A DNA stretch of 45,731 nucleotides, taken from contig CABYDK010000004.1 in assembly GCA_902517735.1 (NCBI GenBank), forward strand, positions 1 through 45,731, read 5' to 3'. The stretch is from an uncultured Pelagibacteraceae bacterium. Its GTDB lineage: Bacteria; Pseudomonadota; Alphaproteobacteria; Pelagibacterales; Pelagibacteraceae. Below, piece after piece: positions 34,784 through 41,003 of this stretch. A program made the translations under genes and the position numbers. Numbering within the stretch: position 1 is the stretch's first letter; every line of letters starts with the position of its first letter. Below the pieces are notes generated by a model that worked only from the letters and a program-made list of their open reading frames with translations, made no database searches and was not told the DNA's origin.

Positions 34784-35407
34784 ATGGGAAAATATAAACT
34801 TAGCTGGAAAGACCTGTCTTGGAATGATTTTAAGATTTACTTATTTGCACTTTTTAAGGCTTTTATACCAAAGAAAAGATTAAGGAACTTGGATGATATT
34901 GAGGATTTTATACAGTCAAAATCTGCCTGGGTAAGTCAAGTAACTCTTTATGGTTATTTGAAAACAAGAATAGGAACTAGATATGTGCTTCATTTTGAAA
35001 ATGATGAATTTATGAAATCTGTAAATTTAGCAAAGTGGAATATTTATGCAGAAGCTCTTCAAGATCTTACATTTTATATATTTTCTTATTTAAAAGTGAA
35101 TTTTGATTACCAAAATATTGATAAAGCAAAAGAAATTTTTGAAAAAATTTTAGATGATGAAACTACTAACAATATGCCATTGAATATAATTAAGGATGCA
35201 AAAAATAATTTTAATCAAAGACTTCATGATATTGATTGGGATAATTATTGTAATGATCTTCCATTTAACCCTAGTGCCTTGTCTTTATACAAATGGGCAC
35301 CTATCGCAGAAGAATTAAAAAAGCTGGATAGAAAAATTGTTTTAAATTCAGTAATACTCAAATGGGATGTAATTAAAAAAGAATTTAAAGAAAGAATTCA
35401 GTTTTAA
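34784..35407 (+). CDS. Conserved hypothetical protein of unknown function
   Basis: 207-aa ORF, no motif recognised; TATAAT at 34759-34764 just upstream; convergent with acs. Confidence 0.75.
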
Positions 35408-37506
35408 ATATTCTTTCTATTATCGACTAAACTTTGAACAACGCTCGGGTCAGCCAAGGTAGTTGTATCACCCAACTGATCTTGTTCATTAGCAGCAATT
35501 TTTCTTAAAATCCTTCTCATAATTTTTCCAGACCTAGTCTTTGGTAAGCCTGGGGTAAAATGTATTAAGTCGGGTCGGTATATGGGGCCTAATGTTCTAG
35601 CTACATGATTTTTCAGTTCTCGTTCAAGATCTCCATCTTCTTTTTCACTTAAATTCAAAGTTACATATACATATAATCCATTTCCTTTAATATCATGTGG
35701 AAAACCTACCACTGCAGCCTCAGCTACTTTAGGATGAGCTACAAATGCACTTTCGATTTCTGCAGTACCTAGGTTGTGTCCTGACACTATGATTACATCA
35801 TCAACTCTGCCAGTGATCCAATAATATCCATCTTTGTCTCTTCTACATCCATCACCTGTAAAATATTTACCTTCAAATTGTGAAAAATATGTATCAATGA
35901 ATCTTTGATGATCTCCATAAACTGTTCTCATTTGTCCAGGCCAAGATTGAGAAATACAAAGTCTTCCTTCTCCAGCCCCTTTTATTTCTTTTCCATCTTT
36001 ATCTAATATAGCAGGCTTAATTCCATAAAAAGGCTTAGTAGCTGAACCAGGTTTTAAAGTTATAGCTCCAGTTTGGGGTGCAATCATTATTCCACCCGTC
36101 TCAGTTTGCCACCAAGTATCTACTATTGGACATTTAGAATTTCCTACAGTTCTATAATACCACATCCAAGCCTCAGGGTTTATTGGTTCTCCTACAGTTC
36201 CTAATAGTTTTAATGATTTTCTTGAAGTTTTATTCACCGGACCATCACCTTCACGCATCAAAGCTCTTATAGCAGTTGGGGCAGTGTAAAAAGTGTTGAC
36301 TTTATATTTATCAACAATTTGCCACCATCTAGAGGTATCAGGATAATTAGGGATACCCTCAAACATTATAGTTGTAGCACCATTAGCCAAAGGTCCATAA
36401 ATTATATAACTGTGTCCTGTAACCCAACCAATATCAGCAGTGCACCAATAAATATCCTTAGGTTTATAATTAAAAATATATTGATGTGTCATTGATGCAT
36501 AAACCATATAACCACCAGTGGTATGTAAAACACCTTTAGGTTTTCCAGTTGATCCAGAGGTGTAAAGAATAAATAATGGATCTTCAGCATTCATTTCTTC
36601 TGGATCACAATACGAAGGTACATCTTTAATTAAATCATGATACCAAACATCTCTACTTTCATTCCAACTAATTTCATTTCCAGTTCTTTTAACAACAATA
36701 CATTTTTTTACATTCGGGCAAGCTAATAATGCTTCATCTGTTGTTGCTTTCAGAGGAATGGTCTTTCCACCTCTAACTCCTTCATCAGCAGTAATTATAT
36801 ATTCAGACTCGCAATCATTAACTCTGCCTGATATCGAGTCTGCAGAAAATCCTCCAAAAATAATTGAGTGAACCGCGCCAATTCTTGCGCAAGCTAACAT
36901 TAAAATTGCAAGCTCAGGAATCATTGTTAAGTAAATTGTTACTCGATCCCCTTTTTGAATTCCTAATTTTTTTAACCCATTTGCTGCTTTGGATACTTTT
37001 TGGTGTAGATGTTTATATGAAATCTTTTGATTATCTTTTGGATCATCTCCAACCCAAATTATTGCTGTTTTATCTTTTTTATCTTTTAAGTGTCTATCTA
37101 TACAGTTTACTGATGCATTTAAAGTGCCATCATGAAACCATTTAATTCTAACTTCTTTAGAACTGTATTTAACATCTTTAATTTTTTTATAAGGTTTTAT
37201 CCAACTAATTCTTTTTCCCTGTTTTTTCCAAAAACCATCATTATTTTTTATTGAGTCATTATAATTTTTTTGATATTGAGATTTATTTGCTAGACTAGCT
37301 TTAATCCATTCAGGTCTAGTTTTGATAACTAATTCAGTCGGATCAGTTATTTTGTCAGTCTTCTTTTTAATTTTTTTTCTTTTATTTAATTTTTTCTTGA
37401 ACGCTCTTTTTTTAGAAGAGTTTTTTTTATTTCTTCTTTTCTTCTTAAATACTTTCTTTTTAGAAGATCTTTTTTTAATTTTCTTCTTCTTTTTTTTTTT
37501 AGGCAT
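35404..37506 (-). CDS. acs: Acetyl-CoA synthetase with extra Lys/Arg-rich N-terminal extension
   Basis: [100 protein letters not shown]; first ~52 aa are [25 protein letters not shown]... Confidence 0.96.
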
Positions 37507-37523
37507 AATTTTAAAATTTATAG

Positions 37524-37937
37524 TTAAATCTTACTCATCTTATTTAAAATTTTCCAGCTTTTAGAGTCTATTGGCATTACTGATAACCTACTTTGCCTGA
37601 TTAAAGATAAATGGCATAATTCCTTGTTTTTTTTAATTTTATCTAGATCAACTGGTTTATCTAGTTTTTTTAAAAATTTAACGTTTACAGCAACAAATCG
37701 ACCAGTTTTATCTGTTTTATCTAAAAAAGCTTCTTTGATTACCTCCACAATACCAACAATTTTTTTTCCTATATTAGAATGATAAAAGAAACATAAATCT
37801 CCTTTTCTCATTAATCTTAAATTGTTAGCAGCCTGATAATTTCTGACGCCATCCCAAGATGCACCTTTAGAACCCGCATCTTTCTGTTGGTCAATTGACC
37901 AAACATCCGGTTCTGATTTGAGTAACCAGTACTTCAT
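37524..37937 (-). CDS. EVE-domain protein
   Basis: [17 protein letters not shown]..., [39 protein letters not shown]. Confidence 0.93.
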
Positions 37938-38009
37938 CTAATTGTTTCTCCAATTTTTACTTACTTTATAGAACATTGAGTTTTCACTTTGCACCATTTT
38001 TTTAAAACA

Positions 38010-38033
38010 CGTACCCCACAATGTACCCCACAT
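38010..38033. repeat. Two tandem 12-bp units: CGTACCCCACAA TGTACCCCACAT
   Basis: Read directly; GTACCCCACA occurs twice with 12-bp period immediately downstream of the HNH gene. Confidence 0.8.
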
Positions 38034-38045
38034 TTATTTTACAAA

Positions 38046-39218
38046 TTATCGATTACCTTTTGCTCGATTGTGAGTCACACATAACATTTCACAGTTCCTA
38101 GCAGTAGTTGGTCCACCTTTAATCCATGCTGATACATGATCTGCTTCCATTTGATTAAATGCCCATATCTTACTTTTATTTGCTTTATGTCCAATAGCAC
38201 AGTATGGACAATTTGATTTATTTTTAGTTTTTGCTGTTTTTGTCTGTGAAGCGTAAGCTGATCTTTTGGTTGCAGTTTCAAACAAACGAACGTTAAGTAA
38301 TTTATAATCCTTTAAACCACCTAAAATAAATTCAAATATACCTTTTTTATCTACAACGTATGGATCTGAGTAGAGTTTATTTTTTCTTTCCGATACTTTT
38401 TTTGTAATGTATGATTTGCTTCTGTATTTTTCATATAGCCGACCCCATTCTAATCCACACATTTCACTTTCTACGTCTTCAAATATACTAGAAATCCAAT
38501 TAATCACTTTATTAAAATATTTTTTTAACTCAGTAATATTTTTATCATATCGATGATTGGACATATAATAATCAATATATCCTTTGCTTACCCAATCTAA
38601 TGCACGTTCTAAAAATGCTTGCCGTTCAACCACACCTTTTACATATGCGCTCCACATTTGAACTTTCGCATTTTTACTATTGCTAAACTCCTCCTTAGCA
38701 AGAGTTACAAATGGTCCAGAATAAAAAGCATTAAGTTTTTCTTGTTCAGTTAGTGGTACACCAACAATATTTATTGTTTTAAACCATTCTTTTATTTCTG
38801 ATTCTGAACCTTCGACTACGTAAATTGTTAATTTTGTATTCAAAATCCTATTTTTTTTGTCCTGTGCCATACCTTCGAATAATTGCATGTTGCCACTATC
38901 TTTATCCTTGATAGCAAATTTTTGAGTAATAAATCGTCCAAGACTAGTGATCCGTTGTTGTCCATCCAGAACTTCTAATTTGTCTTTTGATACTTTATTA
39001 AAATATATCAGCCCTATAGGATATTCATTGAGAACCGATTCGATTACTGCCATTTCTTTTTTGCCATCTCCTAAAGCATAAATATAATTACGTTGGTATT
39101 CTGGTTGAATAGTTAATTTACCTCCTAGACCAAATAATCCTTTTCCTTCAAATTCGTTATATTCAAATCCATCACAAATTTCTTTAACCGTGATATTTAT
39201 TTTTAAATTAGCTTTCAT
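38046..39218 (-). CDS. DUF262 (GmrS-like) plus C-terminal HNH endonuclease protein; putative restriction nuclease
   Basis: QPEYQRNYIY..., LEVLDGQQRITSL (DGQQR motif), C-terminal CPYC...EADHVSAWIKGGPTTARNCEMLCVTHNRAKGNR (HNH). Confidence 0.88.
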   Translation of the reverse strand: MKANLKINITVKEICDGFEYNEFEGKGLFGLGGKLTIQPEYQRNYIYALGDGKKEMAVIESVLNEYPIGLIYFNKVSKDKLEVLDGQQRITSLGRFITQKFAIKDKDSGNMQLFEGMAQDKKNRILNTKLTIYVVEGSESEIKEWFKTINIVGVPLTEQEKLNAFYSGPFVTLAKEEFSNSKNAKVQMWSAYVKGVVERQAFLERALDWVSKGYIDYYMSNHRYDKNITELKKYFNKVINWISSIFEDVESEMCGLEWGRLYEKYRSKSYITKKVSERKNKLYSDPYVVDKKGIFEFILGGLKDYKLLNVRLFETATKRSAYASQTKTAKTKNKSNCPYCAIGHKANKSKIWAFNQMEADHVSAWIKGGPTTARNCEMLCVTHNRAKGNR

Positions 39219-39219
39219 A

Positions 39220-40371
39220 TTATTTTGTCTTTTTTAATCTTATTAGAATTCGAGCGTATTGTGGTTTACCATTTATATATGTACATTTTGATGCACTTTT
39301 TACATTGTTCATCAAATGCTCACGCTCTCCTGTTACATTAGAGTTTCCTAATATTTCAAATTGTTTGGGATTATATTTATCTAGAAATGTAACTGGTACA
39401 CCCATTATTCCTTTATAATCACTTGGAATTGCGTCAGTAAATGGAACTTCTATTGCATTGTAGTTATCATACTTATCGTATTTTTTTTTGCCTCTAATTT
39501 CTTTATGCTTACTAAATTTTAAATTTTCAGCCATTGTCATAAGAGTTAATGGTTGATGACGACGACCATGATCAAGATTAGTAAGCCACAAACAATTATT
39601 AGTGGCAACAATTCTATTTCCGTCTTCATCTATTCGAGCTTCTGTACCGTGTAATTCATAAGTTTTAGGTACAATAAAACCGGAAATCCATCTTCCCATT
39701 CCGTTACCAATCCATGCTTCATTTTTTCTTATCCTTTGAAATATATCTCTATAAGTAAGACAATTAATATTTCCTATAATCAAAAATTTTTTTTTGTAAT
39801 TAAAAATTTGATTTACATAGTCACGAAATAAACTAAAAGGTGGATTTGTTACAATAATATCTGCTTGTTTAAACAAATCTAAACATTCTTCACTTCTAAA
39901 GTCACCGTCACCATTTAATGGAGTCCACTCATTATTTTTATTTGCTTTTAATTGTAGAGCAACATCTTTCAAATTGAACTCCCCATCACCATCTATATCA
40001 CCTACCTCATTGATAATAAATTTGTTTGCGGTAACTTTTTTTCTACCTTTTGCTTGTGGTAGTATTTTGTTATTACTAAACAATTCTAATTGTGTATTTG
40101 CAACAAATGAAGGTTTAAAACTAGTTGTTAATAGTTTTTTTAAACCAAGTCTTTTAAAATTTAAAACAAAATAACGAAAAAAATTGCTTTCAAAAGGATC
40201 GTCACAATTACAATAAATTATTTTTTTTCGGAAAGTATTAGGATTATAATCTAGATATTTTTCAATTTCCTTTTGAATGTCTACGTATTGTGTATAAAAT
40301 TCATCTTTTTTTGATCGTCTAGCATTCTTAAGATTTTTAATTGCATGTTGTCTGGAATTTTTTTTGGTCAT
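39220..40371 (-). CDS. EcoRI-family adenine-specific DNA methyltransferase
   Basis: RRSKKDEFYTQYVDIQKEIEKYL, IYCNCDDPFESNFFRYF, LNGDGDFRSEECLDLFKQADIIVTNPPFSLFRDYV (NPPF catalytic motif), GNINCLTYRDIF. Confidence 0.9.
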   Translation of the reverse strand: MTKKNSRQHAIKNLKNARRSKKDEFYTQYVDIQKEIEKYLDYNPNTFRKKIIYCNCDDPFESNFFRYFVLNFKRLGLKKLLTTSFKPSFVANTQLELFSNNKILPQAKGRKKVTANKFIINEVGDIDGDGEFNLKDVALQLKANKNNEWTPLNGDGDFRSEECLDLFKQADIIVTNPPFSLFRDYVNQIFNYKKKFLIIGNINCLTYRDIFQRIRKNEAWIGNGMGRWISGFIVPKTYELHGTEARIDEDGNRIVATNNCLWLTNLDHGRRHQPLTLMTMAENLKFSKHKEIRGKKKYDKYDNYNAIEVPFTDAIPSDYKGIMGVPVTFLDKYNPKQFEILGNSNVTGEREHLMNNVKSASKCTYINGKPQYARILIRLKKTK

Positions 40372-40443
40372 TACTAATTTAAATTTATCACAAATAAATA
40401 TTTTACACTATATATCATAGAGTTAGTGATTTTAGTTTGTCTG

Positions 40444-40779
40444 TTATAAATCTTCGTTGTGCCAGGTAAATAAATCCTCTTCAAAAGGTATATTTCTAAA
40501 ATTTAATAATGCTTTGTATTTATCAAGCCTCTCCTCTTTTTTTGCTTCCTTTAAAAAACTTAATATTTGATCGTATGTAAGTCCTCTTAATTTATCCTTT
40601 TTTACATCAATATATTCTTCATATTCCATCCCACATATTGCTTTACCTTTGTGAGGAACAATGTGCTCTGCATATGTAATACTCTCATGTGTTTCTTTTA
40701 AGATATCAAAATAGCAGGCAATCTGATTTTCAGACTTGAAAAGATAATCTCTTCTATAATCGAATAGTTCTTGTTGCAT
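40444..40779 (-). CDS. Small uncharacterised protein, co-directional with the MTase/HNH pair
   Basis: 111-aa ORF starting MQQELFDYRRDYLFKSENQIACYFDILKETHES..., no known motif recognised. Confidence 0.6.
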   Translation of the reverse strand: MQQELFDYRRDYLFKSENQIACYFDILKETHESITYAEHIVPHKGKAICGMEYEEYIDVKKDKLRGLTYDQILSFLKEAKKEERLDKYKALLNFRNIPFEEDLFTWHNEDL

Positions 40780-40858
40780 ATCTTGGAGTTATTTAAAATT
40801 CTGAAACAAACTTTAACAATTATTAATATAATAATTAATAGTGGCAAAAGTTTGAAAT

Positions 40859-40882
40859 CGTACTATGCCACGTACTATACAT
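40859..40882. repeat. Two tandem 12-bp units: CGTACTATGCCA CGTACTATACAT
   Basis: CGTACTAT occurs twice with 12-bp period, upstream of the small ORF. Confidence 0.7.
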
Positions 40883-41003
40883 TTACATATTATAATTAGC
40901 TTTAATCAAAATTTTTAATTGTAAAAGTAAGGCAAAGGTTAGTGAGAGTCGGTAGAGTCTTATAGATGTATCACAAGTGTTGGTTTAAGTAACCAATATT
41001 GTA

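Follow-up and report, generated by a model that had tools for sequence, protein, structure and literature searches.

An EcoRI-family methyltransferase, a DUF262-HNH nuclease and the companion gene P111 in a SAR11 island: comparative evidence suggests a non-classical restriction-modification mechanism

Three adjacent genes in a 45,731-nucleotide contig of an uncultured Pelagibacteraceae bacterium (CABYDK010000004.1; this whole stretch is referred to as the window) raise the question of which component of a restriction-modification (R-M) system decides where the DNA is cut. The original prediction had described a DUF262-HNH nuclease, an EcoRI-family DNA adenine methyltransferase (MTase) and an orphan 111-residue ORF, all on the minus strand, and had proposed that they form a novel hybrid of Type II and Type IV restriction. 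The three ORFs were confirmed as an intact operon with ATG starts. The MTase stop and the nuclease start, anticipated to lie 1-2 nt apart, are separated by exactly one base (TAA at 39,222-39,220, ATG at 39,218), and the first gene, named here P111, ends 72 nt before the MTase gene. The source assembly (684 kb) is 58% complete and its relatives have streamlined genomes of 1.0-1.5 Mb. The features of the locus are the following.

37,914 to 37,931, minus strand: right repeat, within the intact EVE gene
37,938 to 41,003, no strand: 3,066-bp island from tsaD to the EVE gene, two genes that abut in several relatives
38,046 to 39,218, minus strand: DUF262-HNH nuclease, 390 aa (Pfam, PADLOC, AF2 model)
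38,049 to 38,210, minus strand: HNH domain (CPYC...ADH...N...C..HN), nuclease residues 337-390 (Pfam PF01844)
38,952 to 38,966, minus strand: DGQQR motif, nuclease residues 85-89
39,220 to 40,371, minus strand: EcoRI-family DNA adenine MTase, 383 aa
39,256 to 39,363, minus strand: T2, second exchanged segment, MTase residues 337-372 (family alignment, comparison of pairs)
39,580 to 39,723, minus strand: T1, hypervariable exchanged recognition-like segment, MTase residues 217-264 (family alignment, comparison of pairs)
39,835 to 39,846, minus strand: NPPF catalytic motif, MTase residues 176-179, conserved in the family alignment
40,444 to 40,779, minus strand: P111, Pelagibacter-specific R-M companion, 111 aa, probable regulator
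40,789 to 40,819, minus strand: inverted repeat TTGTTAAAGTT...AATTTTAAATAA, between promoter and P111 start, recurring in most P111 leaders with weak covariation
40,819 to 40,847, minus strand: promoter-like element TTGCCA-17-AATAAT (consensus match) in the conserved P111 leader
40,981 to 40,998, minus strand: left repeat, a relic of the EVE-gene start on the tsaD side (15/18 matching; 4/2000 shuffles equally good)

The family assignments of the two enzymes were borne out. The MTase matches the Pfam family EcoRI_methylase (PF13651, 5e-127) and the PADLOC model MTase_II (PDLC03297, 9.1e-110), both over the full length, and it is 43% identical over its whole length to authentic M.EcoRI, the reference being taken from a plasmid which also carries R.EcoRI. 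Its partner combines GmrSD_N/DUF262 (2e-19) and HNH (2.7e-6) domains in one protein and is covered over its full length by the PADLOC model REase_II (PDLC03418, 7.3e-74), and no solved structure was matched by sequence with either protein. The existence of these two PADLOC models, by which both genes are filed as 'Type II', makes the pair a known kind of gene pair, and it is carried by hundreds of genomes of bacteria and phages. Consequently, of the proposed novel hybrid, the linkage of an MTase with a DUF262-HNH restriction module stands, while its novelty as a module and a cutting of modified DNA are not supported; by gene content the pair is an ordinary-looking, already catalogued R-M system. 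No study of the DUF262-HNH and EcoRI-MTase combination was found by a text search of open papers.

Conservation of the three genes as neighbours, which the original prediction had named among its tests, holds for the enzymes and not for P111. Among the homologous nuclease loci with room for an upstream MTase, an EcoRI-family MTase gene immediately precedes that of the nuclease, in the same orientation, in 154 of 155 (78/78 bacterial and 76/77 viral), the single exception being a viral locus (L233) with only 425 bp of upstream sequence, in which no MTase was detected. The same pair is found in three further genomes of the genus, where P111 is not beside it, on plasmids of Enterococcus, Moraxella, Apilactobacillus, Rhodococcus, Gordonia and others, in the Flavobacterium phage vB_FspS_laban6-1 (L006) and in the IMG/VR loci L190-L269. 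Its presence in phages means that phages may use it when competing with one another. Used as a single-sequence query against viral contigs, P0001 gave no match and an alignment query was needed for detection. In two loci an ORF of 283 aa, resembling a phage antirepressor by the look of its start, stands between MTase and nuclease (L223:2469-3320 and L224:4127-4978), and strict adjacency is therefore sometimes broken with the pair being kept.

The nuclease itself has its motifs intact. The DGQQR motif is kept in all 145 homologues, as are the HNH residues C337, C340, H361, N375 and C380, with D360 and N384 kept in 144 and H383 in 117 of them. In GmrSD proteins the DGQQR motif has been tied to nucleotide hydrolysis (PMC4619093, PMC8565348). 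The AlphaFold (AF2) model (pLDDT 88.6) found its nearest solved folds in BrxU (the best), nucleotide-bound ParB, sulfiredoxin (Srx) and an HNH nickase; the likeness to GmrSD/ParB is modest, with a best E-value of 4e-3 and a low whole-chain TM. These comparisons support, at the level of a model, a nucleotide-binding fold of ParB/Srx type (DUF262) followed by an intact C-terminal HNH domain, in agreement with the original prediction.

The evidence on where the specificity lies was obtained from an alignment of 148 family MTases for variability and from 145 MTase-nuclease systems for the comparison of pairs. Two stretches of the MTase are variable, T1 (about residues 217-264, of which 222-262 are hypervariable) and T2 (337-372), and both are swapped as blocks between closely related systems. 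In L138 and L139, which come from two independent assemblies, the nucleases are one residue apart and the MTase bodies 97% identical, with T1 at 30% and T2 exchanged; L223 and L224 display the same pattern, again with nucleases one residue apart and an exchanged T2, and over the two couples the MTase bodies are 95-97% and T1 30-36% identical. Across the 145 systems T1 identity is independent of nuclease identity in the range of 50-97%, and among the 530 nuclease pairs more than 75% identical, 446 have MTase residues 222-262 less than 40% identical. As many as 33 T1 types are spread over four nuclease clusters, the type of the window being found with both nuclease subfamilies. The nucleases of the 145 pairs contain no hypervariable recognition segment, and none of their sequence windows shows more covariation with T1 than permuted data do (best partial r 0.107, against permuted maxima with a mean of 0.084 and a largest value of 0.144). 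True EcoRI systems, taken as control, behave differently: where their R.EcoRI proteins are 61-65% identical, T1 and T2 reach 62-79% identity, more than the MTase body does. The variability, the block exchange and this control lead us to infer that T1 and T2 are the recognition segments.

Classical Type II systems expect nuclease and MTase specificity to change together, and no such joint change was seen in these sequence comparisons, which bear on it indirectly. In a classical Type II system, a new MTase target with an unchanged nuclease would expose the host chromosome to cleavage. The simplest reading is a nuclease with no target of its own; the comparisons suggest that it takes its target from the MTase or from the methylation state resulting from MTase action. 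The nucleases of some swapped systems could also be inactive, though their motif residues are intact. The apparent absence of sequence specificity in the nuclease was not foreseen by the original prediction, and the system appears to be neither classical Type II nor Type IV of the GmrSD kind.

As for the target in the window, its T1 is 67% identical to that of M.EcoRI, which is inside the range among true EcoRI MTases, against a family median of 24% identity to the window over residues 222-262, and its T2 is only 33-38% identical to M.EcoRI. The site is predicted to be equal or related to GAATTC; exact GAATTC specificity was not retained, being supported by T1, which resembles that of M.EcoRI, but not by T2.

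We consider it fairly probable, judging from the sequences, that the locus encodes an MTase-directed R-M system whose nuclease does not read the target itself and of which P111 is a probable regulator. On host DNA the MTase would place its methyl group on an adenine of the target, as its family implies, and a presumed NTP-binding domain of ParB/Srx type would gate the C-terminal HNH of the nuclease, probably in an NTP-dependent manner. The MTase would direct the nuclease in one of two ways: the nuclease docks on an MTase molecule sitting at a site that lacks methylation, or it senses the state of methylation produced by the MTase. The recognition segment of the MTase would then set protection and attack together, and its exchange would change both at once in a manner safe for the host, while P111 would act at its own conserved leader to regulate the R-M genes. 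There is about an even chance that such pairs form a kind of R-M system in their own right, and a widespread one, where the EcoRI-type MTase supplies the specificity and the ParB/Srx-HNH nuclease is NTP-gated and has none of its own; in SAR11 it would be one of several R-M cargoes carried behind a constant P111 in small cassettes, some of them bounded by direct repeats.

Other readings were weighed against the same observations. A classical Type II system, where the nuclease, like EcoRI, recognises the site of the MTase unaided and cleaves its unmethylated form, would account for two adjacent genes, for the homology with M.EcoRI and for the PADLOC/REBASE-type naming, but nucleases one residue apart adjoin MTases with unrelated recognition segments, no nuclease segment co-varies with T1 and the true EcoRI control shows the opposite behaviour. 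Variable T1 and T2, a nuclease uncoupled from them and the contrary control together do not fit independent recognition, and we regard this explanation as quite unlikely. The decoupling of nuclease and T1 would also be explained by a modification-gated nuclease, whose DUF262 domain senses adenine methylation and not sequence, the MTase giving a self mark of which the exact site is unimportant. Among DUF262 proteins, SspE senses phosphorothioate. More generally, the domain has been linked to modification sensing in GmrSD, BrxU and SspE (PMC4619093, PMC8565348, PMC12707154). Such an enzyme would, however, have to locate DNA lacking the mark without any help from its sequence, and the strict synteny of MTase and nuclease with their frequent overlap suggests, without proving it, a complex; we take this reading to be unlikely. 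A Type IV enzyme that attacks phage DNA bearing modifications, with an unrelated task for the neighbouring MTase, is in keeping with the DUF262 domain and with BrxU as best fold match, but near-obligate pairing with one MTase family (154/155) is not seen in GmrSD systems and the nuclease domain found by Pfam is the PF01844 HNH, with no DUF1524; we regard this explanation as highly improbable. Taken together, the comparative evidence suggests a non-classical mechanism with the MTase directing the nuclease.

P111 had been described as an orphan, and this does not hold. It belongs to a family with members in 59 of the 399 genomes of the genus, whereas the 288 other genomes sampled across the class have none. 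It has no Pfam or NCBIfam match, no relatives were found on plasmids or phages, and its model (beta4-alpha2-beta) has no match in PDB or BFVD and no recognisable DNA-binding fold. Of 60 other loci, 40 have a gene for restriction or defence no farther than 3.5 kb from P111; this cargo is of several kinds that are not related to each other (m5C Type II, Type I HsdMSR, GHKL with Z1, N6 Type II), and related P111 proteins tend towards the same cargo class. In the 48 P111-bearing genomes, 19 of 33 m5C MTase genes are within 5 kb of P111 (0.35 expected). Among the 32 loci with R-M genes 3' of P111, one of them the window, 22 have a next gene that is co-directional and no more than 130 nt away; among loci without such genes the figure is 0 of 27 (Fisher 8e-9). 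Unrelated sites share the conserved promoter-like leader, which in most loci has an inverted repeat close ahead of the P111 start codon. The role of regulator offered earlier is therefore likely, on account of the linkage with varied R-M genes: P111, which opens the operon, probably controls the R-M genes by acting at its own conserved leader, and it is a previously undescribed companion gene in SAR11 R-M cassettes. An RNA hairpin in the leader is not claimed, RNAalifold predicting nothing and covariation being at the edge of the control; an Rfam search gave no match.

In 17 loci (L021, L022, L067, L084 and 13 others), which have different cargo, a divergent conserved ORF of 57 aa (MKLKIQSLKNYFKSKKDRGLKPIFFEKIGDSNTSREQ...) with an inverted-repeat leader of its own (AGTCCT...AGGACT) lies about 150 nt upstream of P111; it is absent from the window. 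In L022, L039, L067 and L069, P111 or a distant relative stands beside genes for a GHKL ATPase and a Z1-domain protein in an unusual defence-like cluster. L039 also encodes an 860-aa protein matching the profiles of RNA polymerase alpha CTD and Sigma70 region 4, with a relative in L067.

The island lies between two core genes, tsaD and the EVE-domain gene, and in several relatives the tsaD stop overlaps the EVE-gene start. Three genomes (the window, L087 and L088) keep a relic of the EVE-gene start on the tsaD side, and their islands are thus bounded by a direct repeat, of 26 columns in L087, 24 in L088 and weaker in the window. At this same site L087 and L088 hold P111 with a different R-M system of m5C type, and other relatives hold different cargo (TPR genes, a sugar cluster). 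Bounding direct repeats, which differ from site to site, were also found for the P111 cassettes of L103 and L030 (68-69 nt, with a terminator-like hairpin inside), L021 and L025 (about 31 nt), L031, L032 and L073; that of L066 was discarded, since it arose from slicing at the end of a contig. The P111 cassettes examined contain no recognisable recombinase gene. A horizontally acquired, small mobile restriction cassette, with a two-component R-M system and a leader regulator, is the best explanation of the island. The EVE gene was rejected as part of the module, being present in 31 of 31 relatives, and tRNA-linked integration was rejected as there is no tRNA at the island. Elsewhere in the window (35,404-37,506), a gene similar to AMP-forming acetyl-CoA synthetase has a lysine-rich N-terminal extension of about 50 residues, which is present in relatives with variable sequence.

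What is new here is the opposition, over 145 pairs, of a variable and exchanged MTase segment of 33 types to a nuclease with no co-varying segment. If the nuclease is MTase-directed, restriction specificity would change in one recombination step, as in Type I and BREX, with two small genes and no motor, and hundreds of loci filed as 'Type II' would work differently. P111, for its part, offers a way to study how R-M systems are acquired and controlled in SAR11, whose genomes are very small.

With regard to known systems, P111 resembles the controller (C) proteins of Type II systems in preceding R-M genes co-directionally behind an inverted-repeat leader; despite this pattern it was not filed as a C protein, because it lacks an HTH domain, and unlike C proteins it also precedes Type I systems. 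The module shares separate adjacent R and M genes with classical Type II, and a homologous MTase and an EcoRI-like T1 with EcoRI R-M, from which it differs by its unrelated nuclease (DUF262-HNH), its M-R instead of R-M gene order, its T2 and a nuclease not tied to MTase specificity. With the Type IV systems of the GmrSD family (GmrSD, BrxU; PMC4619093, PMC8565348) it has in common an N-terminal DUF262 domain of ParB/Srx fold with DGQQR and a C-terminal nuclease of His-Me finger type. It departs from them by a PF01844 HNH with a CxxC site rather than DUF1524 and by its constant MTase partner. Unlike Type I, BcgI-like and BREX PglX systems, it consists of only two genes with an EcoRI-family MTase and has no HsdS, helicase or translocase motor, neither HsdS nor HsdR motor subunits being found in the island by Pfam or among its ORFs. 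In those systems the methylation side sets the restriction specificity, and the present module is like them in having an exchangeable recognition segment outside the nuclease.
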